35,307 nucleotides of DNA. Source: Halanaerobiales bacterium (GTDB lineage Bacteria; Bacillota_F; Halanaerobiia; DY22613). The stretch spans positions 1-35,307 of the forward strand of contig JAGMES010000034.1 of assembly GCA_023128035.1 (NCBI GenBank). Reading direction: 5' to 3'. The translations under genes were made by a program, and so were the position numbers. The notes under the pieces were generated by a model. It saw only the letters and a program-made list of their open reading frames with translations. It made no database searches and was not told where the DNA came from. Shown here one piece after another: positions 2,832 through 27,016 of this stretch (the stretch's first letter is position 1; each line of letters starts with the position of its first letter).

Positions 2832-2848
2832 TATTGATCCCCTAAACT

Positions 2849-3025
2849 TCAACATAATTTAATTTTTAATTTGGTCATAATGCCTCCGACTTTAGGTAAA
2901 ACCAATTTTCCTTGTGCATGGTATGCTTTGGTAAAAAGTTCTGCAGACTTATATTCTGTAATATGAAGTACATTTTGGTGCTGATCCTAGCTAAGTTTCA
3001 GTAAGCCAGGAAAATAATTACTTAT
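2849..3025 (-). pseudogene. 3' remnant of an unidentified gene upstream of ycaO
   Basis: Fifty-nine codons on the minus strand are open apart from one TAG at 2987-2989. They end in TGA at 2849-2851, 17 bases before the presumed ycaO ATG, the usual spacing of operon neighbours. The readable tail includes HITEYKSAELFTKAYHAQGK followed by LVLPKVGG. The composition is protein-like, but I do not recognise the family. It has no start or ribosome site, so it is most likely the decayed end of a biosynthetic gene of the same cluster. Confidence 0.35.
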
Positions 3026-3054
3026 TTAAAATATTTACAAGATAATTTTCTATA

Positions 3055-4056
3055 TTAAATTGCCACGGTCAGGCAATATTCAAAAATTGTACTTTTCAAA
3101 GGAAATTTCGTAATAGCACTTACTGATTTAAGAATATTGTCAGTTTCAACAACTGGTGCATTGACAAATTGAGAACTAAGACATTCGAGTTTCCAACCAG
3201 AAAGTTCAAATAACTTTTCATAGTTTAGACGAAGCCACATTGATTCCAAACCACGTCTTACTAATTCCTGTACATTTACAGTATCTTCTTCTTTGCAAAA
3301 AGACGATATAGAATAGAATTTGCCACAACAAATTCTCTTTAATTCTTTTAATACATTTTGAGAATAAAATATATTTTGAAGTCCCAATAAGGTAGTCATC
3401 ATGCTGAAAGAATGATCTTTAAAAGGAGATTTTTTAACATCAAATGCCACAAAACTTACATCTTTATTCATATCAAGTTCATTCATCATATCAAAATTTT
3501 GCTTAAGTACTGCTGGATTGATATCGCTCATAACCAATTGCCCAGAGAATTCATTTAGTAATTTAAAGGCTAAGTACCCTTTACCTGAAGCAATATCAAG
3601 GATCACTCCATCATAATCTTTTATAGAATTAATACATTTTTTTATTAGAATGTCAATTGTTTCAAAACAATCATTTAACATTGATTTTGAAATAGAAAAT
3701 TGTATTAATTTGGTTACTTCATCGTATTTTCCACAATTACGCATCAAATTAGCTCGAATTAATAAATCTGAGGCAGATAATTCATTGATAGGAGTATTTA
3801 ATAATTTTTGCATTTTTTCTAAATTTTTATCATAATGTCTTTTTATATATTCTTCTTTGCGTTTCCATATTTTCATATTCTGTAATTTTGGTTCTAAAAA
3901 TAAAGCAATTGAATCGTAAATTGGATATTCACATAAACATTTTGTGCATCTTGCTAGACCTGAAATGATATCTTGTGCATTAATCCTTTCTATTTTCCAA
4001 GACAGCTTATTATGACAAAGGGGACATTCCAATAAATCAATTAGATTTTCTTTCAT
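3055..4056 (-). CDS. SAM-dependent methyltransferase with N-terminal Trm112-like zinc ribbon
   Basis: This 333-residue class I methyltransferase has a zinc ribbon at its N terminus: CPLCH near residue 11, then CTKC after about 30 residues, followed by YPI, the Trm112-like pattern. The Rossmann core is in the second half, with the SAM-binding glycine loop GVILDIASGKGYL, the acidic end of strand 2 (VMSDINP), and VAFDVKKSPF before a post-I/II segment. The middle, about 60-150, is helical and unrecognised. The start is ATG at 4056 because AAAGGAG lies just upstream; an earlier in-frame ATG at 4095 has no ribosome site. A good promoter and a 9-bp inverted repeat precede it. The substrate is unknown. 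Its place between a YcaO gene and a BtrH-like gene suggests tailoring of a peptide or other natural product (inference). Confidence 0.8.
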   Translation of the reverse strand: MKENLIDLLECPLCHNKLSWKIERINAQDIISGLARCTKCLCEYPIYDSIALFLEPKLQNMKIWKRKEEYIKRHYDKNLEKMQKLLNTPINELSASDLLIRANLMRNCGKYDEVTKLIQFSISKSMLNDCFETIDILIKKCINSIKDYDGVILDIASGKGYLAFKLLNEFSGQLVMSDINPAVLKQNFDMMNELDMNKDVSFVAFDVKKSPFKDHSFSMMTTLLGLQNIFYSQNVLKELKRICCGKFYSISSFCKEEDTVNVQELVRRGLESMWLRLNYEKLFELSGWKLECLSSQFVNAPVVETDNILKSVSAITKFPLKSTIFEYCLTVAI

Positions 4057-4093
4057 TTTGATACACTCTCCTTTCATATCATCTTGAATCGTC

Positions 4094-4122
4094 AAGTGAT
4101 AATTAAAACCAATTTATCACTT
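4094..4122 (-). promoter_or_regulatory. Inverted repeat at the methyltransferase transcription start, possible operator
   Basis: AAGTGATAA at 4094-4102 and TTATCACTT at 4114-4122 form a perfect 9-bp inverted repeat with an 11-bp spacer. It begins about where transcription from the 4129-4158 promoter should start. It could be a repressor site or a hairpin at the 5' end of the message. Confidence 0.4.
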
Positions 4123-4128
4123 AGAGAC

Positions 4129-4158
4129 ATAACACAGTAACTTTAACTATTATGTCAA
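4129..4158 (-). promoter_or_regulatory. Sigma-A-type promoter for the methyltransferase gene
   Basis: On the minus strand a perfect -35 TTGACA (4153-4158) is followed by an 18-bp spacer and a -10 TGTTAT (4129-4134). The start of transcription would be near 4122, about 65 bases upstream of the gene. Confidence 0.5.
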
Positions 4159-4266
4159 TCTATTTTTAGTTAACCCACTCTAAAAAGTGTACTAAGATTA
4201 AAGTGTTACTATTGATAACAAATATTAACTATTTATTAATTATTTATAGTTTTTAGAGAATTGGCT

Positions 4267-5220
4267 TCAAATATTTGATAATTTGCAAGCTAATGATTCT
4301 TCACAATCAGCTAAATCCCTTATTCTATCAGCAATTTTACTTTGTAATAGCTTAATATCTGACTTTATATAACCTTTGAAGATTAGTTTACTTATAATAT
4401 ACCATTTTTCTGCTACTAGAAAAAACTCGTCAGCAATTAACAATAAGTCTATGCAATTAGTATTTTTTGCAATATATTCTACTACATTTGAAAATTTATA
4501 TCTTCCATTACTAATTTGTAGTATTCTATGTATTAGTGGTATTTTCCATAAATTTCGAGTATCTTCATACCCACTAAACTCAATTTCTAAATCCATCTCT
4601 CTTTCAAACACTTTAGCAAAATTCCTCATATCATTAAACGAATCAGTAATTGCAAGATTATATAAAATTTCGTCTGTCAATTCTCTCCAATTAGATAGTA
4701 TCAACTCCCTTTTACTAATTTCATATGTATAAAAGGAATCTAAACTTTTGATCAAGTTACTAATTGGCAAAATTACTTCTCTATCTTTTAAATCAAAATG
4801 ATTTTCAAGACAAATAATATTGTTGTGTTTATGACCTAAAGCAAGACAATAATGTAATTGGTGCTGCTTTTGATAATCATCACACCAAGGTAACCAAAAA
4901 ACATCAATTAACAGAAGTACCGGGTGACCATTATTTAACTCATTTGTTATATATCCTACTACATCTAGACATTTTACAGTATCATGTTTAGTCAACTTTA
5001 TTCCATGGTAATAATCAAGATAAAATAGATTACATTTTTCATAAAATACTATTCTTTTCCCTATATTATTAGTTAGTTTATTTTTGTTTATAAAATTAAA
5101 ATTCCATAAATCTTTAAAAATCATAAAGTAATTACGATTTAACCAACTAGTTAAACAAGCAATAGAATTTTCATCATATGTATATTTATTGTTATGAAAA
5201 GGTTTAATATTTATTTTCAT
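4267..5220 (-). CDS. BtrH-like papain-fold protein
   Basis: This 317-residue protein has the layout of the BtrH N-terminal domain (cysteine-peptidase-like fold). In butirosin synthesis BtrH moves an acyl side chain from a carrier protein. Near residues 18-30 is DENSIACLTSWLNR, the usual place of the nucleophilic cysteine (SIACLTS). A hydrophobic strand HPVLLLIDVFWLPW follows, then HQLHYCLALGHKHNNIICLEN with the likely catalytic histidine, and EVILPISNL. The last third is helical, as in the family. The start is ATG at 5220, seven bases after AGGAG; an ATG at 5235 overlaps that ribosome site and is less likely. It lies upstream of the methyltransferase, 210 bp away. Family assignment is from motif pattern, and the substrate is unknown. 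Confidence 0.6.
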   Translation of the reverse strand: MKINIKPFHNNKYTYDENSIACLTSWLNRNYFMIFKDLWNFNFINKNKLTNNIGKRIVFYEKCNLFYLDYYHGIKLTKHDTVKCLDVVGYITNELNNGHPVLLLIDVFWLPWCDDYQKQHQLHYCLALGHKHNNIICLENHFDLKDREVILPISNLIKSLDSFYTYEISKRELILSNWRELTDEILYNLAITDSFNDMRNFAKVFEREMDLEIEFSGYEDTRNLWKIPLIHRILQISNGRYKFSNVVEYIAKNTNCIDLLLIADEFFLVAEKWYIISKLIFKGYIKSDIKLLQSKIADRIRDLADCEESLACKLSNI

Positions 5221-5235
5221 GTCTATTCTCCTCAT

Positions 5236-5811
5236 TGGAATGGCCTTTCTTGAAAAAAATTAAACCTTTTACCATTTTGCTATTTCACACAGATCCTGTC
5301 CATAATTGTTAACATAGTAAAACTATTCGATTATGTGTTACCGTAAATCGAAGCATTTTGTCCTAATTGTACGCAAGTCATATAGAAGATATTACAAAAC
5401 TAAGTATTTTTTATATTTAAAGTCGTAATACACCATGAAACTCTCTACATCTCACTTTGCCACCCACCTTCTCGTATCTGATATAAACATTGTTACATAC
5501 AGAAATACCTAAGCAAGTTTGCGCCCCAGCAATTAACAACTTTGTTATCCCGTTTTAATCGCAGTAATATCGCACTTCTCTAACTATTTCGTCAAATAAT
5601 GGCTAATAATGCACATTAATTGTACCATTATTCCGAGTATAAATCAATCAGGTTTTTTTGTATATCGTCTAGGTAAGTCCTATGGTATTAATTAACATTA
5701 TTAGAAACGTTAAATCATAAAATAAGGCATAAAAATAAAAAAACTTTTTTATTATACCATGTATCGTCTCAATATTTATACCTCAACTCAATAAGTATAT
5801 CGCAAAACAAA
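5236..5811. other. Gene-poor stretch with a possible decayed reading frame
   Basis: No convincing gene is present in these 576 bp. On the minus strand 5417-5554 is open for 45 codons and reads like protein, with LLIAGAQTCLGISVCNN and then YIRYEKVGGKVRCREFHG. The same frame continues upstream through stops at 5555-5557 and in the codons near 5598, giving PLFDEIVREVRYYCD. This looks like the eroded end of an unidentified gene. No ribosome site of good quality precedes it. The rest is AT-rich intergenic DNA on the border between the accessory island and the glycogen operon. Confidence 0.3.
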
Positions 5812-5859
5812 CAATTCATCTCCCTCCTACGCAAAAGCTTAGAGGAGAAAGATGAATTG
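5812..5859 (-). terminator. Terminator of the GT4/GH15/HPr operon
   Basis: A perfect 10-bp stem, CAATTCATCT at 5812-5821 with AGATGAATTG at 5850-5859, is extended inside by CTCC/GGAG. On the minus strand it follows the HPr-like gene and runs into a T-rich stretch (TTGTTTGTTTTG). Confidence 0.7.
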
Positions 5860-5880
5860 GCTAATTGATAAAAAGTCTAT

Positions 5881-6159
5881 TTAAGAGACTGGATATGAAT
5901 CACCCTGACCTGTCTTTAAGAAATGCACCAAATCTGCAAGAGCTTTTTCTTCATCCTCACCTTTAATCTTGATAGTAAGCTGATCTCCGGGTGGTACCGC
6001 AAGAGTCAATAAACTCATTATACTTTTTCCATTGACCTCTTTATCTTCATAATGAATCATAATTCGTGAAGTATATTTACTAGCAATCTGAACAAATCGA
6101 GTAGCATTTTCAGCGTTCAATCCATTTTGATCCTGAATGATCACTTTTTCTTTTACCAC
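5881..6159 (-). CDS. Crh-like HPr-family regulatory protein (no PTS histidine)
   Basis: This 92-residue protein has the HPr fold and length. HPr normally carries PTS phosphate on His15 in a GLHARPA motif. Here the motif is GLNAENATRF, so residue 15 is Asn and Arg17 is Glu: phosphotransfer through this site is not possible. The regulatory serine is kept exactly at position 46 in NGKSIMSL. Bacillus Crh has the same arrangement, with Gln15 and Ser46, and acts as a CcpA co-repressor when HPrK phosphorylates Ser46. By analogy this is a regulator and not a sugar-transport carrier. The start is GTG at 6159 with GGGGG upstream. It is the last gene of the glycogen operon, 20 bp after GH15. An hprK pseudogene lies at 23849-24604. 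The role is inferred from the residues. Confidence 0.88.
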   Translation of the reverse strand: MVKEKVIIQDQNGLNAENATRFVQIASKYTSRIMIHYEDKEVNGKSIMSLLTLAVPPGDQLTIKIKGEDEEKALADLVHFLKTGQGDSYPVS

Positions 6160-8179: not shown

Positions 8180-10642
8180 CTAACTCATCAAATAATCTTC
8201 GATTTTCGATGCATACTCATGAGAAATTTCACTGGCAATTCCTGGATCATCTGCTTCAGTATATACATGAAAGACTGGTTCATCAATATCAGGATAGACC
8301 AAAGTCCAACCATGATCATGATAAACCTTGACACCTTCTACTAACTCAACTTTTTCATTTTTTGTAGATTCGATTAACCGCCTCATTACACGGCCTTTCT
8401 CTTCCCAGGGACAATTCACATCCTCCAAATTAGTATAAAATTCAGGAATAGTCTGAATTATACCTTCTAATGTCATCTCCTGGTCAGCCATAAAATCAAG
8501 AACCAATCCCAGAGAGACAGCAGCATCACTGTAAGGGTAGAAAAATGGTTTGCCATTTACTACTGTTTCTTCATAAAACCCTCTCATCACAGTTGGTCTA
8601 TCACTTCTAGTACGAATAACTTCACCACCATATTCATTGACCAAATTATCTATATAAGCAGGTGCATTAACTGGCACAACAAGTTTACGCAAACCCTGAT
8701 TAAGAAGGATCATAGCAATTAAAATTTGAAACTCTTCATCAGTCACAACTCGTCCAGTTTCAGTAATTAAAGTCAGATTCTCTCCATTATGATCAAGAAT
8801 TGCTCCTAGATTGGAGTTTAGATCCTGGATCATGTTACCCATCCGATTACTAGTAGCTAACCTTTCGGCATAACTCAATGGTCGCATTCCTCGTCCATAA
8901 TTATAAGTTGAATCCACATCACAGCCTAATCTCTCTAATAATACAGGAATAATCGGGGCCAGACTTTCTAATTCATAATCCATTACCAAATGATAGCGTT
9001 GTCGCCGAATTTGATCACGATTCAATAGTGAAAGAAGTCCCTGCAAATAGCTCTCCACCATCTGCGGTGCATAATAATATTCTCCAATCAATTCCTGATC
9101 AGCTCGTTTAAAATCTTCATTGAAGAATTTCTTTTCAATCTCTCGTTCCATTGTACGATCAATATTAATTCCATTTCCATCAATAAACTCAATAATTACC
9201 TCTTCAGGATTATCATAACAACATCTGATATGTAATCCACCTTCTGCATCTATTGCAGCGATACTATATCTAGCTACTGGAGATGGAATTTCTCCTAAAT
9301 CCACAACTTTCTGACCAGAAGATAAGAGTCCGGATACAGCAGCTTTTTGTAACATTCTAGAGATTGAAAAATTATCTGAACTTATCGCAATTTCAACGGA
9401 TTTATTAAAAGTTGACCCATATGAGGCAGCAAGTTTAGCCACAAATTCTGGTGTCATCTCAATATTTGAAAGGCCATGCACTCCGTAGGTATTAAAGATT
9501 CGCTTGCGCCATTTTTCTTCCCAAACCAAACTTCTATTAAGATTTGTATAGTCTTCAACTTTCTTTCTGGGCCAAATCTTAACTTCAGCCTGAATCGTTA
9601 CATTCCGCCCCACTGTACTATCTTTACCCAACGAGGCACCCTCAAAGATTCGAATATTATCCTTTGTTTTTACCCCATCACACAAAATTCCAGCTCTCAC
9701 TTCTGCATTTTTACCTAGATACACACCAGACCAAAGAATGCTTCGCTTAAGCGATGAACCTGATTCAATAATAGTATGATCTCCGACTACTGCCGCTTCC
9801 AAATAAGTATTTGGTTTTAGCACCACATCTTCTCCAATATAAACAGGAGAGTTCAAATAAACATCCCCAGGAATCTCAGTATTTTCTCCCACCCAAATTC
9901 CTTCATCTATCTGTCGGCCACAAACATATACATCAGCTTTGCCATTTAAGATATCAAATTGTGTCCTTATATATTGTTCAACATCTCCAATATCTGACCA
10001 ATACCTATCAGTTGGATATCCATAAAGAACTTCCCCATTTTGCATCAATAAAGGAAAAAGATCTTTACTAAAATCAAATTTAACTCCACGCTCAAAATAG
10101 TTAAAAATTGTTGGCTCCATAATATAAATCCCAGTATTCACTAGATCACTAAAAACTTCTCCCCAGGATGGTTTCTCTAGAAAACGATTAATTTCACCAT
10201 TTTCATCAATCATCACAACCCCATATTCCAAAGGTACTGGTTGCTGGCTTAAAACAAGTGTCACTAATCCACCCTTAGAATTATGATATCTAATAGCATC
10301 AGTTAAATTAATATCTGTCAAAGCATCACCACTGACGACAATAAATGATTCATCTAGAAACTCTGTAGCATTTCTCACACTTCCAGCAGTTCCCAAAGGT
10401 TCTTCTTCCAAAAAATATTGAAGTTTCACTCCCCATCTACTGCCATCTCCAAAATAATCCCTAATCATCTCTGGAAGATAGTAAGTTGTAACACCAATCT
10501 CTGTTATTCCATGATCCTTTAATAGTTCAATACTATACTCCATTACTGGTTTATTCAGTATTGGCACCATCGGTTTTGGAAGATTACATGTTAATGGGCG
10601 TAATCTTGCTCCCTGCCCACCTGCCATAATAATTGCTTTCAT
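8180..10642 (-). CDS. NDP-sugar pyrophosphorylase fused to a degenerate phosphomannomutase domain
   Basis: This 820-residue fusion has a sugar-1-phosphate nucleotidyltransferase domain (about 1-235) with the intact signature [18 protein letters not shown], the [12 protein letters not shown] segment and [13 protein letters not shown] left-handed beta-helix follows (about 250-365), then a phosphomannomutase/phosphoglucomutase-like part (about 380-820). That last part looks dead: the phospho-serine loop, usually TASHNP, reads RCCYDNPEE, and the metal loop DGDGDR reads DHNGEN. Such fusions are annotated as mannose-1-phosphate guanylyltransferases. In this operon, directly downstream of a GT4 synthase and upstream of GH15, it may instead supply a nucleotide-glucose donor (inference). 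The ATG start has GGAGG upstream and the gap to the GT4 gene is 19 bp. Confidence 0.88.
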
Positions 10643-12237: not shown

Positions 12238-13836
12238 TTGACTGTAGGTTATTTAAACTTAGTTTTACATGCCCATTTACCATTTGTACGTCATCCAGAT
12301 GATGCGGACCCATTAGAAGAGGATTGGCTTTATGAAGCTATAACTGAAACCTATCTTCCATTGCTAAATATAATGGAGCGATTAGAATCTGAACAGGTAC
12401 CCTTTCCAATATCTATCGTTCTTAGTCCAACATTACTCAATATGTTAGATGATGATTTATTACAAACACGCTACCTAAGACGCCTGGAGCGATTAATTGA
12501 ACTTGCCGAAAAAGAGGTGGAAAGAACAAAAAAAGAAGCACCTGAATTTCTAAACGTTGCAAAGATGTATCTTGATCTTTTCAAAAAATCCTTATATCTA
12601 TATTGTGATAAATATAACAAAAATATTATTCAGGGTTTTAAAGGATTGCAGGATAGAGGTCAAATTGAAATAATAACCTGTGCAGCAACTCATGGGTATT
12701 TGCCATTAATGGTCCAGAAAGAAGCAATTCAAGCTCAAATTCGGCAAGGAATAAAAACCTATGAGCGTTTCTTTGGTAAAAAACCTTCAGGAATTTGGTT
12801 GCCAGAATGTGGTTATAACTCTCAAATAGATCAAATTCTTGCTACTGAAGAAATTAAGTATACTTTTATTGACACACACTGCTTGCTTCATGCTTCCCCG
12901 CGTCCAAAATATGGAGTACATGCTCCAATCTATTCTCCTTCAGGAGTCGCTTATTTTGGACGTGATATAGAAACTTCAAGGCAGGTTTGGAGTGCTAAAG
13001 AAGGATATCCTGGAGATTTTGACTACCGTGAATTTTATCGTGATATTGGTTATGATCTCGATTATAACTATATTCGCCCATATCTTCATTCAACGGGAAT
13101 TCGTAAAATGACAGGCATCAAATATTATCGAATAACAGGTAAAACAAATTATAAAGAAATATATAATCCAGTTTGGGGCAGAGACAAAGCAGCAATTCAT
13201 GCAGATAACTTTATCTCTAATCGCCAAAAACAACTAAAATATCTAAGCATGGTTATGGGTACTAATACTTATAGAAAACCACCCATCATCAACGCACCAT
13301 ATGATGCAGAACTTTTTGGCCATTGGTGGTATGAGGGACCACAATTTTTAGAGTTTTTATTCAAAAAAATTCACTTTGATCAAAATGAAGTGAAACTAAC
13401 TACACCTTCTAGATATTTAGAGCAATTTCCCAAATTACAAATTGCCCAACCATCTGAAGGAAGTTGGGGTCATGAAGGATTTCATGAAGTTTGGTTAAAT
13501 GGAACCAATGATTGGATTTATCCTTACTTGCATAAAGCAACAGAAGAAATGATTCAACTTTCTAAACAGCAAAATCCATCTTATCTGAAACAGAGAGCTT
13601 TAAACCAAGCTGCTCGTGAATTATTATTAGCACAAAGCAGTGATTGGGCATTTATTATGAAAACTGGAACAATGGTAGACTATGCTATTAGACGAACTAA
13701 AACTCATTTAAATCATTTTGCTGATATCAACAAGATGATTAGAAAGGATCATATTGATGAAGTGGTATTATCAAAATATGAAAAGGAAAATAATCTTTTT
13801 CCCGAAATGGATTATCACATTTATCAGTGTATGTAG
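12238..13836 (+). CDS. GH57 (DUF1957-type) 1,4-alpha-glucan branching enzyme
   Basis: This 532-residue enzyme would move alpha-1,4 chains to 6-positions, making glycogen branch points. It begins GYLNLVLHAHLPFVRHP, the first conserved GH57 region. The nucleophile is E190 in GIWLPECGYNS and the acid/base D356 in NAPYDAELFGHWWYEGP, positions close to those known in the Thermococcus enzyme. The C-terminal helical region with LLLAQSSDWAFIMKTGTM is characteristic of the branching subgroup. The start is TTG at 12238, ten bases after AGGAG. No signal peptide is present, so it acts in the cytosol. The next gene is a DUF4912 protein 40 bp downstream, a common partner of this branching enzyme. It faces away from the glycogen synthase operon. 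Confidence 0.93.
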   Translation: MTVGYLNLVLHAHLPFVRHPDDADPLEEDWLYEAITETYLPLLNIMERLESEQVPFPISIVLSPTLLNMLDDDLLQTRYLRRLERLIELAEKEVERTKKEAPEFLNVAKMYLDLFKKSLYLYCDKYNKNIIQGFKGLQDRGQIEIITCAATHGYLPLMVQKEAIQAQIRQGIKTYERFFGKKPSGIWLPECGYNSQIDQILATEEIKYTFIDTHCLLHASPRPKYGVHAPIYSPSGVAYFGRDIETSRQVWSAKEGYPGDFDYREFYRDIGYDLDYNYIRPYLHSTGIRKMTGIKYYRITGKTNYKEIYNPVWGRDKAAIHADNFISNRQKQLKYLSMVMGTNTYRKPPIINAPYDAELFGHWWYEGPQFLEFLFKKIHFDQNEVKLTTPSRYLEQFPKLQIAQPSEGSWGHEGFHEVWLNGTNDWIYPYLHKATEEMIQLSKQQNPSYLKQRALNQAARELLLAQSSDWAFIMKTGTMVDYAIRRTKTHLNHFADINKMIRKDHIDEVVLSKYEKENNLFPEMDYHIYQCM

Positions 13837-13876: not shown

Positions 13877-14602
13877 GTGATTCAATGGCTTCTTTTACTA
13901 GCCATCGGAATTTTTGTAGTTTTCAATTTTCTACGTCATCGAAATACTAATTCAGAAGAAATTATTCTTCCACCGGGTCACAGGTTAGCAAATAATAAAA
14001 ACAAAGATGACGAATTTGCAGAGGATTTCATCAAAACCAAGAAAGAGATTGGGCAAATGAAAGCTAATGGTGATGAGCAAACAATATTATCTCGGGAAAA
14101 GTATGATCAGGAATCTGGATTAGAACTGGAACCTGTAACATCAGACCATATAATTCAAATCGGTTTTCCAACTAAACGGATTTCTGGACATGAAATGCAA
14201 ATCGATCTAGAATTAACTCCTACTCTTGTAGCATTAACAAAAGATCCCTATTGGATTTATGTTTATTGGGTTCTTCCCCCTGATTCACCCATAGGGAAAT
14301 GGGAGTTAAAAATTCATAATCTTTCCCAACAGACTGAGAAATATGAAAGAATTAATCCACAATCGGGGAACTGGTATTTACCCATTAATCAACCTGATCA
14401 AAAGTTTATCTTTACTCTTGGGATAAGAGATATAGATGGAAAATTTAATCCAATTATTGTATCAAATGAAATTCATACTCCACCTAATCGTCCATCCGAT
14501 AAAGTGGATGCCAAATGGGGAACGATAAAAGAATTTTATGGTCAGAGAAAATTTATGAAAGCTGAAGGTTCTCCGGAGTTTATCTCAAAGAGAAAAGGGT
14601 AG
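13877..14602 (+). CDS. DUF4912 membrane-anchored protein
   Basis: This 241-residue protein has one N-terminal membrane helix (about 3-19, WLLLLAIGIFVVFNF), a charged linker to about residue 95, and a DUF4912 domain in the second half. The domain includes LTPTLVALTKDPYWIYVYW and FTLGIRDIDG. Its fold is a beta-sandwich of unknown function that often neighbours GH57 branching enzymes in Firmicutes and cyanobacteria. The start is GTG at 13877 with a very strong GGAGGTGA nine bases upstream; no other start has such a site. It is co-transcribed with the branching enzyme, and a bidirectional terminator follows. It might tether glycogen enzymes or granules to the membrane, but no function is established. 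Confidence 0.85.
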   Translation: MIQWLLLLAIGIFVVFNFLRHRNTNSEEIILPPGHRLANNKNKDDEFAEDFIKTKKEIGQMKANGDEQTILSREKYDQESGLELEPVTSDHIIQIGFPTKRISGHEMQIDLELTPTLVALTKDPYWIYVYWVLPPDSPIGKWELKIHNLSQQTEKYERINPQSGNWYLPINQPDQKFIFTLGIRDIDGKFNPIIVSNEIHTPPNRPSDKVDAKWGTIKEFYGQRKFMKAEGSPEFISKRKG

Positions 14603-18219: not shown

Positions 18220-18250
18220 AAAAAAAGACCCGAAATTTAATTCGGATCTT
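18220..18250 (-). terminator. Terminator of the TPR-protein gene
   Basis: AAGACCCGAA (18225-18234) pairs with TTCGGATCTT (18241-18250) with one mismatch and a six-base loop. A seven-base U run follows on the minus strand (18220-18226). The stop codon of the TPR gene is in the loop. Confidence 0.8.
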
Positions 18251-19403
18251 TCAATAACTCTTCTAACAATTGTTTTGCTTCCTCATTATCAGAATCCAAA
18301 TGTAATGTTTCCCTAAGCTCATAAATAGCAGATTCTTTCTGATTCAACATTATAAAAGCCTTTGCTAAATGTAGATGAGCTTTAGGATAGTTAGGATTCT
18401 TTTCAAGAGCAAGATTATATAAAGACTTAGCACGATATTGATTATTCTGTGTTAGGTAAATATCACCTAAAGAGATCAATGCCTCTACATATTGAGAATT
18501 ATACTCGATTGCAAGTTCATAATATTTTATTGCCTCTGTATAATTTTCATCTATCTCTGCAATCTTTCCTAGATAATAATATGTCTGATAAAGGTATGGA
18601 TTTTCCTCAATCGTCTTTAAGAATTGATCTTTAGCTAACTCATATTGTTCCATGTGGTAGTATGCCATAGAGAGTTTTAGTAAACTAGAAACACGGTTTG
18701 GAATCATCTCCAAGGTCTTTTTATAATACTCTGCAGCTTCTGCATAATCACCTATAGCAAACTTCAGATCAGCTAACCCTTGATAAATCGATAGGTTCTC
18801 TGCATCATTCTCCAAAGCAGTCTCCAAAGCTTTTACTGCTTCATTATATTTACCTAGCTCTTTATAAGCAATTGATAAACTCACATAACCATTCACATTT
18901 CTAGGTTCTTGCATTAAGGCTAACTTATATTCAGTAATTGCTTTGTCATATTGACCATTTCCCTGATACGCAGCAGCCATGTCTAAATGAAATTCAGCAG
19001 TACGGATGCCCATATCATAAGCTTTATTAAATTCTTCTAAAGCTTCACTCCACAAAGCAGAATCAAACTGAGAATCTTTATTTAAATATAGCTGGCCCAC
19101 CCTCCAATGAAGATAGCCTACATCATAACCTGCATTGATCATAGCTTTTAAAGAATTCTTCGTTTCCAGCAAATTATATAAACTTGCATACGAAACTGTT
19201 CTATAAAAGTATGCATCATAGACAAAGAGATCGTTGCTATCAATTTCCTGATCGAAGTAATTAATAGCTGTCTCATATTCACTAGATAAATATGACTGTA
19301 TTCCCAAGTGGAAATCACTTTCCTGGCAAACTGCTGTCATCGAATAAGTAATTATCCCGACAAAAACTAAAATAACAAATAAAAACAAACGTGCTTTTTT
19401 CAT
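18237..19403 (-). CDS. Secreted or membrane-anchored TPR repeat protein
   Basis: This 388-residue protein starts MKKARLFLFVILVFVGIITYSMTAVCQ, a signal peptide that might be cleaved near the cysteine; the VCQ context is not a standard lipobox. The rest is about eight to nine tetratricopeptide repeats in series, for example YDKAITEYKLALMQEPRNVN, YNEAVKALETALENDAENLS and YTEAIKYYELAIEYNSQYV. TPR arrays bind partner proteins, and none can be named here. The start is ATG at 19403 behind GAGGAGGTG; an upstream in-frame ATG near 19463 lacks a ribosome site and would bury the signal peptide. It lies 77 bp after the GH133 gene and has its own terminator. Confidence 0.85.
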   Translation of the reverse strand: MKKARLFLFVILVFVGIITYSMTAVCQESDFHLGIQSYLSSEYETAINYFDQEIDSNDLFVYDAYFYRTVSYASLYNLLETKNSLKAMINAGYDVGYLHWRVGQLYLNKDSQFDSALWSEALEEFNKAYDMGIRTAEFHLDMAAAYQGNGQYDKAITEYKLALMQEPRNVNGYVSLSIAYKELGKYNEAVKALETALENDAENLSIYQGLADLKFAIGDYAEAAEYYKKTLEMIPNRVSSLLKLSMAYYHMEQYELAKDQFLKTIEENPYLYQTYYYLGKIAEIDENYTEAIKYYELAIEYNSQYVEALISLGDIYLTQNNQYRAKSLYNLALEKNPNYPKAHLHLAKAFIMLNQKESAIYELRETLHLDSDNEEAKQLLEELLKDPN

Positions 19404-19480
19404 AAAGCACCTCCTCAAGTTTATGAATCTTTCTAATTCCTCATATTTATCTTTCGCCATCATACTTTAACTTCCTGCCT

Positions 19481-21439
19481 TCATTTTTCAATTAGGTCTT
19501 TTATCCTTAAAAGTTCAGCGATACTCCATGCCTGAGCAAAACATCCCCGATGATGATATGGACTCTCACCATCAAAAATTTCACTAATCTGTCCTATCGC
19601 TCCATCACATTCTAAGTGGGTAAGTAATGGTTCTATTAAACGGTGAATCTTCTTTCTAATAGTAGGAGTATTACCTTCTACATAGAGTACTGCTCCAAGA
19701 TAAGGCCCCATTAACCAGCTCCAAACAGTACCTTGATGATATGCTCCATCCCTTTGATACTGATCTCCACCATAGTAACCTTTATAAGCTGGATCAATAT
19801 GTGATAAACTACGTAATCCAAATGGAGTCAACAAATGTTTTTTCACTACCCTTAGAATCTGGCTTCCTTTCTCCCGATCAATAAGGGGGAAAGGTAAACT
19901 TAAAGCGAACACCTGATTTGGTCTTATAGCTGGATCCTTATAATCATCTAAAATAAGATCATATAAATATCCTTCTTTAGCCAGCACATCTTCTCGCCAA
20001 AACTCTTTTCGAAAGTTTACGAGAATCTTTTCAGCCAACTTTTCATACTCACAAGCAATCTCTTCATTCCCTGTAACTCTAGAAAATTCCGTAATAATCT
20101 TCACAGCATTATACCAAAGAGCATTGATTTCCACCGCTTTTCCCTCTCGAGGAGTAACCACCCAATCTCCTACTTTGGCATCCATCCAGGTTAATTGTAC
20201 CCCATCCTGACCTTGAGTTAACAATCCATCTTCATCCATTTTGATTCCCCAAATGGTACCTTCTGTATGGTAACGAATCATCTCTTTTAAAAGCGAAAAA
20301 TATTTATTTACAAATTCTAAATCCTGAGTTTTACGATAATATTCATAAAAAGCTACAAAGAACCAAAGAGTAGCATCCACTGTATTGTATTCTGGTTCTT
20401 CCCCAACATCTGGAAAACGGTTAGGAATAAGACCATTACTTGAATATTTAGCAAAGGTCTCTAAAATCTCTTTAGCTTCTTGGAATCTACCTGTTACTAA
20501 TGCTAGCCCAGGCAAAGCAATCATACTATCCCGACCCCAATCTGTAAACCATGGATAACCTGCTATTACCGTAGCTGTATCACTAGAATCTCGATGAACT
20601 AAAAATTGATCGGCAGCTACCACCAATTTACGACTCACTTCATCCTTTGCTCCAGCCTGTAACCATAATTCTTCTATCCGAACAACTTGTTCTTGATAAA
20701 CATCAGGAATTTTAGAATACTTATCTTCAGTGGAAAAAATTACCTCTAAACGCTCCCCAGGTTTTAAAGTAGCTTTTAAAAATCCAGGCACAAAATGATC
20801 TTCCACTGCTTTTAAACCACGATATGCTTCAATCGGATAATACATTCCATAATGCCAATATCGTTCTTCTGTCCACTTTGCTTTTGAAGTCATATAAACC
20901 GGAGTAGCCCCTGAAAAAGCCGTGAACTGATACTGGTAGCCATTTTTTTCTACAATCCAAGGCCAGTCATTTGCTTTAATATTGCCATGATAATCACGAT
21001 AATTCAATAGAGGAGTTAATTTAAGTTCTATAGAATCTGCTCCATCAAGATAGTGATACTCAACTATAGTTGTATTTTCACCATAGATCATATATATCTT
21101 TTTTTCAATAACTATTCCATCTAGATGATAAGTAAATATAGGATGAAAAAGATATGTAAAAGCAGTCAGATGCTTATATCCTATAGTAATCACATTATTC
21201 TGATATAAATGAGTAGTCAAATCAATTTCCTTATCAGCAAATTGTACTTTTTCATCCAGATGACTAACGAGCAACGTCCTTTCAAGTGGAGGACGAAGGG
21301 CAGCTACTAAAATACCGTGATAACTTCTCATATTAGCTCCTACAAGTGATGAACCCGCAAATCCACCTATCCCATTCGTTACAATCCATTCACGATAGGC
21401 TAACTCATCTTTCATAATAGATCCTGTTAAACGTATCAT
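19481..21439 (-). CDS. Amylo-alpha-1,6-glucosidase, glycogen debranching enzyme (GH133 type)
   Basis: This 652-residue enzyme would hydrolyse alpha-1,6 branch stubs of glycogen. The N-terminal domain (about 1-215) has the signature REWIVTNGIGGFAGSSLVGANMRSYHGILVAA. The C-terminal (alpha/alpha)6 domain has IAGYPWFTDWGRDSMIALPGLALVTGR, GQDGVQLTWMDAKVGDWVVTPREGKAVEINALWYNA and RDGAYHQGTVWSWLMGPYLGA, all typical of archaeal/bacterial GDE_C. The start is ATG at 21439, preceded by GAAGAGGTG; a start at 21478 is possible in frame but lacks a ribosome site. No signal peptide is present, so it acts on cytosolic glycogen. It complements the GH57 branching enzyme and GH15 in this window. A hairpin separates it from the CBM gene. 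Confidence 0.92.
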   Translation of the reverse strand: MIRLTGSIMKDELAYREWIVTNGIGGFAGSSLVGANMRSYHGILVAALRPPLERTLLVSHLDEKVQFADKEIDLTTHLYQNNVITIGYKHLTAFTYLFHPIFTYHLDGIVIEKKIYMIYGENTTIVEYHYLDGADSIELKLTPLLNYRDYHGNIKANDWPWIVEKNGYQYQFTAFSGATPVYMTSKAKWTEERYWHYGMYYPIEAYRGLKAVEDHFVPGFLKATLKPGERLEVIFSTEDKYSKIPDVYQEQVVRIEELWLQAGAKDEVSRKLVVAADQFLVHRDSSDTATVIAGYPWFTDWGRDSMIALPGLALVTGRFQEAKEILETFAKYSSNGLIPNRFPDVGEEPEYNTVDATLWFFVAFYEYYRKTQDLEFVNKYFSLLKEMIRYHTEGTIWGIKMDEDGLLTQGQDGVQLTWMDAKVGDWVVTPREGKAVEINALWYNAVKIITEFSRVTGNEEIACEYEKLAEKILVNFRKEFWREDVLAKEGYLYDLILDDYKDPAIRPNQVFALSLPFPLIDREKGSQILRVVKKHLLTPFGLRSLSHIDPAYKGYYGGDQYQRDGAYHQGTVWSWLMGPYLGAVLYVEGNTPTIRKKIHRLIEPLLTHLECDGAIGQISEIFDGESPYHHRGCFAQAWSIAELLRIKDLIEK

Positions 21440-21467
21440 TATGTACTTCACCTCTTCAATTATAAAT

Positions 21468-21493
21468 GGGCCTATCAATATTCCGATAGACCC
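21468..21493 (-). terminator. Hairpin between CBM protein and debranching enzyme
   Basis: GGGCCTATC (21468-21476) pairs with GATAGACCC (21485-21493) with one mismatch and an 8-base loop. On the minus strand only a weak T-rich stretch (ATTTATAATT) follows, so it may be a weak terminator or a transcript-stabilising hairpin after the CBM gene. Confidence 0.45.
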
Positions 21494-21516: not shown

Positions 21517-21855
21517 TTAATAAAGTTTACCATTATGAATTTCAAAAGACCAATTCCGTCCACTGTTATTATCCCAATTTCCTGCATTATCATGGAAACA
21601 AAAGTTTAAACGTGAATCTTTATCAACTGCAATTTTAGTCGCAAAACAATTACCCAACCGATTCATTTTTACATCAGTTATATTTTCCCAACCATCATTG
21701 AGCCCAAAACCAGTGTGACAATATAAATCTTGTGCACCTGATTTTGCCAAAAGACCTTCATATTGAATATCAACACGTTGTCCTGCAATAATTGGGGTTG
21801 GTGTAACCTTAATTCCTTGATCTAAATCTGCTTGCATCTGACCAGTTGTATGCAT
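21517..21855 (-). CDS. Stand-alone starch/glycogen-binding module (CBM25/CBM53-like)
   Basis: This 112-residue protein is a single carbohydrate-binding module. The strand pattern VDIQYEGLLAKSGAQDLYCHTGFG and then GWENITDVKM, LNFCFHDNAGNWDNNSGRNWSF matches CBM25/53 starch-binding modules, whose WDNN-G-NW segment carries aromatic binding residues. The first 20 residues have no signal peptide, so the protein should be cytosolic. It has no catalytic domain. The ATG start follows AAGGAGGAG. It sits between the two glucodextranase C-terminal-like genes and the debranching enzyme, suggesting that it binds glycogen, perhaps as a granule or targeting protein (inference). Confidence 0.8.
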   Translation of the reverse strand: MHTTGQMQADLDQGIKVTPTPIIAGQRVDIQYEGLLAKSGAQDLYCHTGFGLNDGWENITDVKMNRLGNCFATKIAVDKDSRLNFCFHDNAGNWDNNSGRNWSFEIHNGKLY

Positions 21856-21917: not shown

Positions 21918-22859
21918 CTACTGGCTAATAGGATCTTTTTTACTTTTCATCTTCACTATCAAAAACAATAATCCAACCACTATTAGAACAGCTAACCAGA
22001 TGTAACTATTTTTTTCAACAGGAACAACAACTTCCTTCTCAACCGCGATATTGATATAAGAGACTGTTGCAAAATCTTTACTATCTGGGGAAACCTTCAA
22101 AACATCTTCTTGAATCATTCCCTCAGGAACCAGAATATCCAGTACTCTGGAGTCTAACTCAGGATTCGTACTCCCTCCAAATATCCAGTCTCCACTATCT
22201 TCGGTAATCTCTCTGAAATAATCTGGAGCAAAAGGCTCAAAGGCTCCTACTAATAAAAATAATTTTGCAGATTTTAAATCCCCTAGCACTTTTTTTGCCA
22301 ATTGAATCTTGATTACATTTTCCTCAATATTTACCTGTACTTGTTCTAAATCAAAAGGATTTTTTGTGTCATTCCAAAAAATCTTTTTTTCTTCAATTTC
22401 AGCGCGATCAGATGGTCGAAATGCTCTAACCCACCATCCAGTAATATTTAACATCACATCCCATGGTGCATCTTCATCTAATTTTAATCTCGCCCCAGGT
22501 CTAAAAAGTTCTACACTACCACCAGGTAAATTATCAATATAAATTTGAATCAAAGGATGGCTAAAACCAAACTTTGAATTCCATGGATCATCTACTTTGC
22601 CAAAATCAAATTCTAGAAGATAATCAGATCCAATATCTGTAATAGCAAATCTAGTCAGATCAAACAACCCCTTAAATGGTTGAAAATGCTGATGTTTTGG
22701 ATATGTATAATACCCAGGTCCCCAATCATCACCTACTGGATCTTTCATTTCAAAAATTAATCCTGGTAGCTGAACTTCACCTTCTGCAAGAAGATTAAAA
22801 CTTAAAAAGATGACTAAAATACCTATAATAGTTATAAATTTTAAAATTCCTATTCTCAA
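21918..22859 (-). CDS. Membrane-anchored glucodextranase C-terminal-domain-like protein A
   Basis: This 313-residue protein has an N-terminal signal (FITIIGILVIFLSFNLLAEG), one beta-sandwich domain (about 30-245) and a C-terminal membrane helix (about 282-302) with a basic tail, so the domain faces outside. The domain matches the glucodextranase C-terminal sugar-binding type: DPVGDDWGPGYYTYPKHQHF, GLFDLTRF, FGFSHPLIQIYIDNLPGG and the SGDWIFGG segment. No hydrolase domain is attached. The start is TTG at 22859, seven bases after GAGGGGG. It is a paralogue of the adjacent upstream gene. The role is probably binding of external alpha-glucans or surface attachment, but this is not established. 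Confidence 0.8.
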   Translation of the reverse strand: MRIGILKFITIIGILVIFLSFNLLAEGEVQLPGLIFEMKDPVGDDWGPGYYTYPKHQHFQPFKGLFDLTRFAITDIGSDYLLEFDFGKVDDPWNSKFGFSHPLIQIYIDNLPGGSVELFRPGARLKLDEDAPWDVMLNITGWWVRAFRPSDRAEIEEKKIFWNDTKNPFDLEQVQVNIEENVIKIQLAKKVLGDLKSAKLFLLVGAFEPFAPDYFREITEDSGDWIFGGSTNPELDSRVLDILVPEGMIQEDVLKVSPDSKDFATVSYINIAVEKEVVVPVEKNSYIWLAVLIVVGLLFLIVKMKSKKDPISQ

Positions 22860-22904: not shown

Positions 22905-23828
22905 TTACGAAGAAAATTCCTCTTTTTCACGTATTCGCCAACCAAACCAGATCAAAATCACAATTAACAGTGAAATCAAATAAATAAATACTTTGCGAAC
23001 TGGATTAGGTCTCTTAACAGGTTCTACAACAGCCAAAATCCGATTTGCGGGGTCATAAGAACCTAAAATTTTTTTTTGGCTTTTATGAGAAGGAGTGAGA
23101 ATATCGATTACGTTTGGGGAATATTTGGATTCATCACCACCACCAAAATACCATTCACTTATATTTTCCTTTACCACTCTATAATTATCAGAGCCAAAAC
23201 CATCCTGCCCACCAACCAAAAGATAAAATGAAGCATCAGATATATCCTCTAAACTACTCTCCGCTAACAAAGGTATCTTAATTTCAATTGTCTTCTCATC
23301 TTCCAAAACTTGAACTGTTCCTCCAGAATACTGTTTAGCATATGCTTCTTCATCACCCGTCTCTTCACAATCAAAATAATCAATTCTCCATCCTGTTACT
23401 TTGATTAGTGTATCCCAGGGTGCTTTAGGACTAAAGACAATCCTTGCTCCCGGAACAAGAGGTCGTCTTTCACCACCTGGACGATGATCAATATAAATTT
23501 GAATTAACTGATGGCTAAACCCGAAAGGCGCATGCCACGGATTTGTAATCAAGCCAAAAGAAATCTGAAAACGAATTTCTTCCTTTCTCGCTTCCACCTT
23601 AAAACTTTCAATATCAAACAATCCCTGATAAGGGGAAAATTGAGGATGGGTAGGGTATAGATATGTACCTGGCCCATAATCATCTCCCAAAGGATCAGGC
23701 ATATCTAATATCATAACCCAGTTCTCGTTTTCTATATTTTTTGGTAATTCACCTTCATTCTGTCCCCTCACTGCCCATACACCAATAAGTAAAAAAATCA
23801 AAAGAACAAGTGAAAGTTTCCGAAACAT
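22905..23828 (-). CDS. Membrane-anchored glucodextranase C-terminal-domain-like protein B
   Basis: This 307-residue protein has the same plan as its downstream neighbour: signal peptide (LSLVLLIFLLIGVWAVRG), one glucodextranase C-terminal-like sandwich and a C-terminal membrane helix (about 278-297) with a basic end. Shared landmarks are DPLGDDYGPGTYLYPTHPQF, GLFDIESF, FGFSHQLIQIYIDHRPGG, APWDTLIKVTGWRIDYF and SEWYFGGG. It begins with ATG at 23828, just downstream of the hprK pseudogene, and reads as part of the ROK-hprK-glucodextranase-like gene string. It probably arose by tandem duplication and may form a surface pair with protein A. Confidence 0.8.
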   Translation of the reverse strand: MFRKLSLVLLIFLLIGVWAVRGQNEGELPKNIENENWVMILDMPDPLGDDYGPGTYLYPTHPQFSPYQGLFDIESFKVEARKEEIRFQISFGLITNPWHAPFGFSHQLIQIYIDHRPGGERRPLVPGARIVFSPKAPWDTLIKVTGWRIDYFDCEETGDEEAYAKQYSGGTVQVLEDEKTIEIKIPLLAESSLEDISDASFYLLVGGQDGFGSDNYRVVKENISEWYFGGGDESKYSPNVIDILTPSHKSQKKILGSYDPANRILAVVEPVKRPNPVRKVFIYLISLLIVILIWFGWRIREKEEFSS

Positions 23829-23848: not shown

Positions 23849-24604
23849 TTAGTGTTCAGAACTTTCGAAACTTTTTTCTTTTTTACGAGCAATTTCAGCA
23901 TCTAGACGTCTGGTAAATTCGTAAGCTGCATTAAAACCCATATATTTTAAACGATGTGTCATGGCACCTACTTCAATAATGGTCGCCAAATTTCGCCCAT
24001 TACGCACTGGGACGATAACTTTTGGAATTTCTAAATCAAAAATAGTATCAGTCAATGAAGTCAATCCCAGTCGATCATAAACATCCTGAGTAGAGTACTT
24101 CCAATTTTATTGCACCAACGCCAAAAAGTGTTTTCACATCAATTATTCCTAGGCCTCTCAATTCCATATAATGTTGATTTAACTTTAAAGCATTCCCTAT
24201 AAGCATATTTGCTCCTATCTTGCGTATTTCCACAAGATCATCTGCTACTAACCTATGTCCCCGTTTAACCAATTCTAAAGCTGACTTAAAAAACGAGTTG
24301 TCGAAACATTTACTCTCAAAAGTGGAATTTTAGATTCATTTGCTATAAGAATCATTTCATCTGGTGGTAGGAAATTTCTGGTGATAATCACCCCAGGTAA
24401 AGGATAATCATAAAATTTTCTCAATCTCTCTCTTCTTGTGGTATCAGTCAATCCATTAAGAAAAGTAATTTTTGTTTTTCCTAAAACCTGGATTCTTTCA
24501 GGCGTAAAGTATTCCCAATATCCAGCCAACTCAATTCCCGGAAGCTTAATATCTGTCACTGTTAGAAGATTCTTTAATCCTGATTTTCCAGCTAAGAGTT
24601 CTAG
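23849..24604 (-). pseudogene. hprK: HPr kinase/phosphorylase, inactivated by several deletions
   Basis: HPrK phosphorylates HPr and Crh on Ser46 using a P-loop. Here three recognisable pieces lie in different frames. Piece one (from 24604) has NLELLAGKSGLKNLL and then GIELAGYWEYFTPERIQVLGKT, up to STTRFLS. Piece two resumes at [20 protein letters not shown] and runs to [19 protein letters not shown]. Piece three is [21 protein letters not shown] and VPVRNGRNLATIIEV, with an intact C terminus. About 40 residues between pieces one and two are absent, and they include the whole Walker A P-loop (GxxGxGKS). About 10 residues and the frame are lost between pieces two and three. The first ~13 codons with the start are also gone, as the frame opens right at the ROK stop. 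The gene cannot make an active kinase. Confidence 0.9.
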
Positions 24605-24605
24605 A

Positions 24606-25577
24606 TTAAAATGATTCCTGATGATTTTTTAGGGCTACAGCAATTGCTCCTTTTACTCCTACATCTGAACCAAGAGATGCAAAAACAATCTCACACTTTT
24701 CCGATGCTGCCTTTAATGCTCGTTCTTTGACAGTCTTAATGATGGTATCATAAAATAAATGCCCAGCTTTTGTAACACCACCACCTAAAACCACTCTTTG
24801 AGGATTAAAAATATTGAGCATATTAGCAACCCCGATACCAATATATATAGCAACCTTTTCAACAATCTCTAAAGCTATTTTATCCCCAGCATCTGCAGCC
24901 TTAGTTACAACAGAGCCATCTACTTCATCAAGAGTATTTACCAGATCAGTCATCATAGTATCTACACCACTTGCTACTGCATCCCGTCCATAACGTCCAA
25001 GAGCTGTACCAGAAGCTAAAACTTCAAGACACCCTTTATTTCCACAACCACAAACAGGTCCATCTACATCAATGGTATGATGTCCAATCTCTCCACCACT
25101 ATCATTACTACCATGAAGAATTTGACCATCAATGATCACACCGCCGCCAATTCCTGTACTAATCGTCATGTAAATCATATGATCTGTTCCTTTTCCTGCT
25201 CCAAATGCATGCTCAGCTATTGCTGCAGCATTGGCATCATTTTCAAGTGAAACAGGTATACTAAGAGCATCCTCCATCATTCTAACAATAGGTACATTAT
25301 CCCATTTCAAATTCGGAGAAAAAAGCACTACACCTTCACGTATATTTAAAGGACCTGGAGAACCAACTCCAACTTGTAACACTTCTTCTTTTTTAGCCCC
25401 GATCTTTTCAATAACTTCTTCTACAGTTGCGACTATTCGATCTATTACTTTCTCAGCGGCTTCACCCGCACCTGTATCTACTCTAACTCTCTCTAGTACC
25501 TCACCTTCCAAATTAGCAATCGCAGTTAAAATTTTTGTGCCACCTAGATCGACTCCAACTACAAATTTCTTGTTCAT
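24606..25577 (-). CDS. ROK-family glucokinase
   Basis: This 323-residue protein would phosphorylate glucose with ATP. The N-terminal phosphate loop is VGVDLGGTKILTA. Sugar-binding residues are in SLENDANAAAIAEH and GGEIGHHTI (the ExGH motif), followed by the zinc motif CGCGNKGCLEVLASG. ATP contacts are in STGIGGGVIIDG and VVLGGGVTKA. There is no N-terminal helix-turn-helix, so it is an enzyme and not a NagC-type repressor. The ATG start follows AAGGAGG. It fits the window by recapturing glucose released by GH15 and the debranching enzyme. The stop codon coincides with the broken 5' end of hprK. Confidence 0.9.
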   Translation of the reverse strand: MNKKFVVGVDLGGTKILTAIANLEGEVLERVRVDTGAGEAAEKVIDRIVATVEEVIEKIGAKKEEVLQVGVGSPGPLNIREGVVLFSPNLKWDNVPIVRMMEDALSIPVSLENDANAAAIAEHAFGAGKGTDHMIYMTISTGIGGGVIIDGQILHGSNDSGGEIGHHTIDVDGPVCGCGNKGCLEVLASGTALGRYGRDAVASGVDTMMTDLVNTLDEVDGSVVTKAADAGDKIALEIVEKVAIYIGIGVANMLNIFNPQRVVLGGGVTKAGHLFYDTIIKTVKERALKAASEKCEIVFASLGSDVGVKGAIAVALKNHQESF

Positions 25578-26417: not shown

Positions 26418-27001
26418 TCATAAGCTTTGATAAAAATTTTCATATTGAGAAATAATCTTCTCTGCATCAAACCTTTTTTCCACCACTTTCCGTCCTCTCT
26501 CTGCAAACTCCTGATGAATAGATGGATTTTGCAATAAATAAATCCCTTTCTCGGCCATCTTCACATAATCATCTGGCTCCTCAATACTATATTTAGTTAA
26601 TTCCTTAAACGATGGGTCATTTCCCACCAAAGTTATATTTGTCCCATGTAATGTAGTGATTATCTTTAACTCTGGCTTCTTAGCTATATTACGTGCCATG
26701 ATTGTACAAACGAATGAGGAATAGCATAATGAGCATGGATTACATCTAAATTTTCATAACGGATCAATTCAGCAATCTTATTTGCAAGTGCTAATGAATA
26801 AGGTAGATATTTAAATAAAGGATATGTAGGTGTATCCACTTCATGATAATAAATGTTATCATGAAATTTATCTAAACGAAAAGGTATATCGTAACTAATA
26901 AAATGAACCTTATGCCCTCGACTAGCCAATTGTTTACCAAGCTCGGTTGCTACCGCGCCACTTCCTCCATGTGATGGGTAACAGACAATTCCGATTCGCA
27001 T
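26418..27001 (-). pseudogene. bshA: Bacillithiol glycosyltransferase BshA, frameshifted and missing its centre
   Basis: Intact BshA (about 375 residues) joins N-acetylglucosamine to L-malate, the first step of bacillithiol synthesis. Here the first 100 residues are excellent ([47 protein letters not shown]). A frameshift near 26690 then moves the frame to [20 protein letters not shown] and NITLVGNDPSFKELTKYSIE. Immediately after, the sequence jumps to EPDDYVKMAEKGIYLLQNP and the normal C terminus ISQYENFYQSL. About 175 residues, the end of the N domain and nearly all the nucleotide-sugar-binding domain including the EX7E region, are absent. Neither fragment can be active. The terminator and the flanking genes are intact. 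Confidence 0.9.
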
Positions 27002-27016
27002 TTTAGTACCTCCTAC

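Follow-up and report, generated by a model that had tools for sequence, protein, structure and literature searches.

An HPr-like protein without the carrier histidine in a glycogen operon of Halanaerobiales, most likely a PTS-free, serine-only energy reporter

Why would a glycogen operon end in a gene for an HPr-like protein that lacks the phosphocarrier histidine? The question arises from a contig of a Halanaerobiales bacterium (JAGMES010000034.1, 35,307 nucleotides; this whole stretch of DNA is called the window below), in which an initial annotation had placed a Crh-like HPr with Asn15 and Ser46 at 5881..6159. The coordinates stand, but the gene lies on the minus strand: read from 6159 to 5881, that strand carries a 92-codon open reading frame for the HPr-like protein, and plus-strand translation of the same positions meets four stops. 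The minus-strand translation confirms Asn at residue 15 (GLNAENATRF) and Ser at residue 46 (NGKSIMSL). It also shows Glu and Asn at residues 17 and 18, which the annotation had not mentioned, compared with Arg and Pro in ordinary HPr, and the protein does not carry the PTS phosphocarrier signature of His15, Arg17 and Pro18.

The protein nonetheless belongs to the HPr fold. The Pfam PTS-HPr model (PF00381) matches it with 90.2 bits (cut-off 23), TIGR01003 matches it with 80.6 bits, over its cut-off, and the predicted fold is that of HPr (mean pLDDT 91), the top PDB fold match being an HPr (E 3.6e-10). Its best PDB sequence matches are Crh chains. It passes none of the eight curated equivalog models listed, including NF010354/PRK13782, the model that we take to stand for Crh, which gives 75.3 bits where 123 are required. 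The counterpart in Anoxybacter fermentans (BBF96_01875) is annotated as hypothetical at NCBI and as HPr domain-containing in UniRef. Our literature search covered titles and abstract openings, with few subscription journals, and among the matches listed there was no account of the protein, its residues or its operon.

The operon of GT4, nucleotidyltransferase and GH15 genes that had been proposed around the HPr gene is present (Table 1). Gaps of 19, 11 and 20 bases separate the GT4, nucleotidyltransferase/mutase, GH15 and HPr genes, HPr being fourth and last. RNA folding of 5795-5885 gave -27.9 kcal/mol (z -4.75), corresponding to a likely terminator hairpin with a U-rich stretch after it; the position of these elements directly behind the stop codon suggests that HPr is probably the last gene on the transcript. 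The hairpin is absent from the list of a simple terminator scan that allowed only loops of 3-8. Promoter-like sites in the window were about as frequent as chance predicts, 25 against an expected 27.5. The phosphomannomutase-like domain encoded within 8180-10642 has an unusual loop at the position of the serine loop, as do its counterparts in L047 and L001. Active mutases carry a serine loop, so this domain may be dead and regulatory. Elsewhere in the window, YcaO, methyltransferase and BtrH_N-like genes at 1831-5235, with an adjoining transposase at 188-1510, possibly form a peptide-modification cluster.

Table 1. Features of the HPr operon and the surrounding glycogen cluster, in positions of the window
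Feature	Position	Strand	Remarks
Likely intrinsic terminator directly 3' of the HPr gene	5812..5859	minus	17-nt arms, 88% complementary, then UUUGUUUUG
HPr-like protein, 92 aa	5881..6159	minus	GTG start; N15/E17/N18, S46; PF00381 and predicted fold
GH15 oligosaccharide amylase / glucoamylase-like, 662 aa	6180..8168	minus	TIGR01577 340 bits, under cut-off 820.7
Nucleotidyltransferase with left-handed beta-helix and phosphomannomutase-like domain, 820 aa	8180..10642	minus	
GT4 glycogen-synthase-like glycosyltransferase, 426 aa	10662..11942	minus	First operon gene; glgA_Coryne 158 bits, under cut-off
GH57 1,4-alpha-glucan branching enzyme	12238..13836	plus	Divergent from operon
DUF4912 protein	13877..14602	plus	After GH57; conserved in relatives' clusters
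TPR protein	18237..19463	minus	Conserved cluster member
GDE amylo-alpha-1,6-glucosidase (glycogen debranching)	19481..21478	minus	GDE_C 441 bits
Starch-binding module protein (CBM53)	21517..21855	minus	
Glucodextran_C domain protein 1	21918..22859	minus	
Glucodextran_C domain protein 2	22905..23828	minus	
HprK gene, broken in assembly	23849..24628	minus	PF02603 117.7 bits; PF07475 81.7 and 57.2 bits
ROK-family sugar kinase (probable glucokinase)	24606..25577	minus	Overlaps HprK region; ROK 265 bits

The residue pattern of the window protein is shared by a family. Ten of its 11 protein-database matches lack His15 but have Ser46, and the eleventh (P0011) has both residues. With a profile built from the ten His15-less matches, 929 proteins scored over threshold, and in the best 120 of 929, 16 proteins stood at 138-169 bits with the next best at 104. 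In this clade of 16, position 15 is Asn (12) or Asp (4) and never His; Arg17 and Pro18 are likewise absent from every member, position 17 being Glu (7), Gly (3), Gln (2), Asp (2) or others and position 18 Met (7), Val (3), Ile, Leu or others. In ordinary HPr, by comparison, all 77 sampled His15 rows have Arg at position 17 (171/172 of all aligned His15 rows), and 71/77 of those sampled have Pro at position 18. K45, S46, I47, M48, S49 and L51 are identical in all 16 members, and the clade has also fixed Q24, S27, Y37 and P57 (16/16), positions that vary in ordinary HPr. This pattern suggests that constraint on the phosphocarrier centre has been relaxed, whereas the Ser46 face and a new surface remain conserved. 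The Crh-like logic originally proposed, His15 gone and Ser46 kept, is thus borne out in 16 of 16 members. A chance origin of the Asn15/Ser46 pattern was considered and is rejected, since 10/11 matches and 16/16 clade members share the loss of His15 and the presence of Ser46.

A phylogeny of 107 of 220 HPr rows, a short alignment in which most forks stay open, places the 16 members on one side of a branch with SH-aLRT support of 98, or 99 when columns 15-18 are omitted. The window protein therefore does not fall among ordinary HPr, the placement that the initial annotation had named as contrary to its claim, and a recent His-to-Asn change in an ordinary HPr is rejected. The tree neither joins the clade to Crh nor separates it from Crh: AU tests, on few columns, gave p 0.64 for the clade with Crh and p 0.79 for the clade with Crh and the Glu15/Gln15 rows, and both constrained trees scored above the free quick search. 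Further HPrs without His15 fall outside the clade in the quick tree, namely 22 Glu15 rows, Crh with Gln15 and the Arg15/Gln15 forms of genomes G035-G038. The Glu15 rows (e.g. P0029, P0034, P0074), whose named sources include Defluviitaleaceae and Epulopiscium, have Arg17 in 22/22 and Pro18 in 17/22, and are perhaps a wider Crh-like family. An extra HPr paralogue, L063 (G052:C4:23560-23799), has Pro15, Gln17, Leu18 and Asp at position 46, the last a possible built-in phosphoserine mimic.

The operon recurs in relatives. A profile scan of genome contigs from 84,980 species returned 15 loci, of which only L001, in a Halothermothrix MAG (G001), shows the clade residues, residue 15 of L014 being unaligned. 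A second clade locus lies in A. fermentans (G008), of the same class; it is not among the scan's 15 loci and was found by a search of 59 class genomes. Among 398 phylum genomes, clade-like scores occur in these two only (145.7 bits in G001 and 149.9 in G008; next 102.2). All three clade loci read (window, G008, G001) have the order GT4 - nucleotidyltransferase/phosphomannomutase - GH15 - HPr, which answers in the affirmative, for these Asn15/Asp15 proteins, the earlier question of whether relatives keep the operon. The divergent GH57 - DUF4912 pair is repeated in both relatives. Identity between the window and the relatives is 65-80% for HPr, GH57, GT4, the nucleotidyltransferase/phosphomannomutase and GH15, and about 46-50% for DUF4912. 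An ECF-type S component lies inside the cluster in the window alone among the three loci. GH15 matches occur in 6/59 class genomes: G001, G008, G049, G050 and G051, the last three at 54-58% identity, and G016 with a weak partial match (22 bits). The stretches around GH15 in G049, G050 and G051 (L107-L109) contain GalU-like nucleotidyltransferases and no match over more than 35% of the length to the window HPr, GT4 or nucleotidyltransferase/mutase, L109 being truncated upstream of GH15 by the end of its contig. These GH15 orthologues without an HPr nearby indicate that GH15 needs no adjoining HPr.

The strongest evidence, absent from the initial annotation, is an HPr kinase/phosphorylase gene (HprK) in the same cluster. 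HprK phosphorylates Ser46 at high levels of ATP and glycolytic intermediates, and dephosphorylates it when phosphate is abundant. Both relatives have an intact, full-length HprK with its P-loop about 16 kb from HPr, at the opposite end of the glycogen/glucokinase cluster; the cluster runs ROK-HprK-...-GT4-nucleotidyltransferase/phosphomannomutase-GH15-HPr in G001, and in G008 it was pieced together from two overlapping stretches. In all three loci HprK stands by the ROK kinase, followed by the two Glucodextran_C genes, the starch-binding module and the debranching enzyme. The window copy overlaps the end of the ROK gene, in the same place as the intact genes, and is in three pieces, with no single open frame and the P-loop stretch missing, although its remaining residues look constrained. 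Nearby, at 26418-27553, genes tentatively named as a BshA-like glycosyltransferase and a BshB1-like PIG-L protein are in two pieces and apparently shortened, respectively. The broken HprK and these incomplete neighbours point to assembly faults or decay in this stretch; an assembly fault is a possible cause of the HprK break, as is real gene loss. The closest HprKs, P0122-P0132 (n = 11; in the best 120 of 7865), are all whole with a P-loop and include those of the two relatives. Four of the five clade members on contigs longer than 50 kb (G001, G008, P0002 and P0006) pair with an HprK whose contig is identical in length to theirs and probably the same one; for the fifth, P0007 (54 kb contig), such a partner is missing among the best 120 of 7865.

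Is this kinase-substrate pair still attached to a PTS? Across the 59 class genomes, HPr was found in 48, HprK in 39 and enzyme I in 45; the genome-level results on PTS, HprK and CcpA for the clade come from its two relatives, G001 and G008. Each has one HPr and one HprK, and the second, normal His15 copy that could have undermined the original proposal was looked for and found in neither. Neither enzyme I (PF05524) nor EIIC (PF02378) was found in the two genomes. EIIA (PF00359), the other EII family looked for, is also absent from both, and from G049 and G051, which have enzyme I and EIIC, hence this absence says little. The A. fermentans genome is essentially one contig of 3.56 Mb, which makes its lack of enzyme I the firmest. 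In the 14 class genomes without enzyme I, HPr and HprK are kept together in three (G001, G008, G037) and are both absent in 11. His15 is missing from HPr in all three HPr-bearing genomes without enzyme I, compared with 3/44 genomes with it (G035, G036 and G038, where it is the only HPr; G029, whose HPr match lies inside a longer frame, is outside the 44). The association gives Fisher p 0.0012, uncorrected for kinship, and the six His15-less genomes represent two lineages. G001 and G037 are multi-contig assemblies with completeness not stated, and the presence of enzyme I in the close kin of G037 (G035, G036, G038) suggests that its absence there may be an assembly gap.

This second lineage, G035-G038 (L057-L060), has a sole HPr with Arg15 or Gln15, Lys17 and Ser18, and Ser46 kept. 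The gene adjoins D-amino-acid aminotransferase-like and butyrate kinase-like genes in L057 and L060. Enzyme I occurs in three of the four genomes and EIIC in none of the three tested; in G035 (L114), HprK again has relatives of the ROK, DUF624 and Glucodextran_C genes as its neighbours. A few other species, such as Bartonella and Ureaplasma, are described as keeping HPr without enzyme I in portions of one paper (PMC2405797). They resemble the present case in having HPr without ptsI; the word glycogen is missing from the main text of that paper.

How far does the likeness to Crh extend? Bacillus Crh also has the HPr fold, no His15 and a Ser46 site for HprK. However, it keeps Arg17 and Pro18 (Q-R-P), which no member of the window clade does, and it works via CcpA, according to PMC3526391 and PMC9631020, in a cell with an ordinary HPr, whereas neither another HPr nor enzyme I nor a protein reaching the CcpA cut-off was found in the two relatives. 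Their 17 LacI-family matches comprise 14 full-length proteins, one partial and two second head domains, and all score below the CcpA cut-off of 442 bits, the best reaching 296. Two of these LacI-family proteins, L155 (G008) and L166 (G001), of about 400 residues, apparently have two DNA-binding head domains. Arg304 of CcpA is given as a contact of Ser46-P in an excerpt from PMC4591507, and its equivalent is present in 2/14 full-length LacI proteins. At this position L158 (G008) has Gln and L165 (G001) has Arg, these two being probable counterparts judged by an aligned segment and their distance from HPr. Cre-like sites in the window number 3 against 3.2 expected, with one mismatch allowed. On sequence grounds the window protein may function like Crh, but with Arg17 lost, no conserved CcpA partner found and a sole HPr in the two relatives, identity with Crh is not supported.

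Our comparison establishes clade-wide loss of the carrier site, conservation of the Ser46 patch, synteny of operon and HprK, and two relatives in which enzyme I and EIIC were not found. Without enzyme I and His15, the protein cannot carry phosphate from PEP, and the kept Ser46 patch with a linked HprK suggests an energy signal by serine phosphorylation. Sequence comparison thus makes it most likely that the window HPr reports energy state through serine alone, independently of a PTS. We estimate a probability of about one in two that it is a former PTS phosphocarrier turned serine-only regulator that informs the glycogen machinery, most likely by binding directly to one of the enzymes encoded alongside it. 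A fuller model is tentative, and we hold it with somewhat less than even confidence: a PTS-free phosphoswitch, in which the sole HPr gave up its carrier site together with its CcpA-type surface and became part of the glycogen operon, where it would now control glucoamylase or glycogen synthase directly via HprK-driven phosphorylation of Ser46. Once enzyme I was lost, residue 15 would no longer carry phosphate; HprK at the other cluster end would phosphorylate Ser46 at high ATP and glycolytic intermediates and remove the phosphate at high phosphate; and the state of Ser46 would tell the glycogen machinery to store or release glucose, the signal passing most likely by protein contact with the GH15 glucoamylase or the GT4 synthase. 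Here we infer the phosphorylation of Ser46, the direction of its effect and its target.

If left unregulated, a synthase, a glucoamylase and a sugar kinase encoded by a single cluster would consume ATP in a cycle, and such regulation would avert a futile cycle of synthase, glucoamylase and glucokinase. There is a precedent in E. coli, where binding of HPr to glycogen phosphorylase is said in a review (PMC11046441) to prevent futile cycling through the pathway; PDB entries 9s8k and 9s8b are entered as structures of that complex. The risk of an ATP-burning cycle and this precedent make an operon enzyme the leading target, and direct control of glycogen enzymes would be the leading reading of our analysis. 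The E. coli case is alike in that an HPr-fold protein acts directly on a glycogen enzyme, as far as the entries for the complex describe it. It differs in that the E. coli complex uses an ordinary PTS HPr, whereas the window HPr lacks the carrier site and its gene accompanies those of GH15 and GT4 rather than a phosphorylase gene. The operon evidence covers three loci, and the window HprK is broken in the assembly.

The target may also lie outside the operon, since methylglyoxal synthase (MgsA, over cut-off) and alpha-glucan phosphorylases are encoded elsewhere in both G001 and G008. On this basis the protein could be a general Ser46-P regulator of the Crh kind, acting on MgsA or alpha-glucan phosphorylase and placed in the operon for co-expression. 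Crh acts on MgsA in Bacillus, and absence of MgsA from the relatives would have weakened this explanation. HPr(Ser-P), Crh and MgsA share one pathway legend and section heading in PMC9631020. Moreover, PMC8760340 describes for Thermoanaerobacterales an ordinary HPr, whose sequence carries His15, close to starch genes, GH15 among them, so nearness need not mean binding. We nevertheless regard a general regulator as unlikely: Arg17, kept in Crh and nearly all His15 rows, is lost in 16/16 clade members, which argues for a changed contact surface, and the operon with its HprK cluster is kept in 3/3 loci read. Less probable again is inducer exclusion, in which the protein phosphorylated at Ser46 would close a maltodextrin ABC transporter. 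CcpA-independent inducer exclusion is described for maltose uptake in Lactobacillus and Lactococcus in parts of PMC2860498. With EIIC not found in G001 and G008, sugars must enter by other transporters, and a MalE-type-like binding-protein gene stands beside a LacI gene on the HPr contig of G001 (L126). The likeness to Lactobacillus casei and Lactococcus lactis lies in CcpA-independent action of Ser46-P, as those same parts describe it (PMC2860498); those systems act on maltose ABC transporters, however, and the cluster genes common to the three loci include no ABC transporter gene.

We consider it very doubtful that the protein serves as a corepressor for a LacI regulator of the CcpA type and so is functionally a genuine Crh. 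The two LacI proteins with an Arg304 equivalent and the tree tests that do not reject a grouping with Crh speak for it, but no LacI protein exceeds the CcpA cut-off, the probable counterparts L158 and L165 differ at position 304, Arg17 is lost throughout the clade and cre-like sites are no more frequent than expected. Most improbable of all is a functionless HPr remnant decaying after PTS loss, suggested by the variable active-centre residues of the clade and the broken window HprK: the Ser46 patch and further surface residues are fixed in 16/16 members, the HprKs P0122-P0132 are whole with their P-loop, though only four are tied to clade members, and genomes without enzyme I either keep HPr and HprK together (3) or lack both (11). 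Direct control of an operon enzyme through Ser46 remains the reading that we favour.

HPr/HprK signalling is usually tied to the sugar PTS and CcpA. In the Halothermothrix MAG and A. fermentans, the kinase and its substrate persist in one glycogen cluster, and enzyme I, EIIC and a recognisable CcpA were not found, which makes these organisms a minimal system for asking what HprK signalling does alone. The finding also opens the question of whether contact between HPr and a glycogen enzyme, as in E. coli, may be a wider form of bacterial glycogen control.
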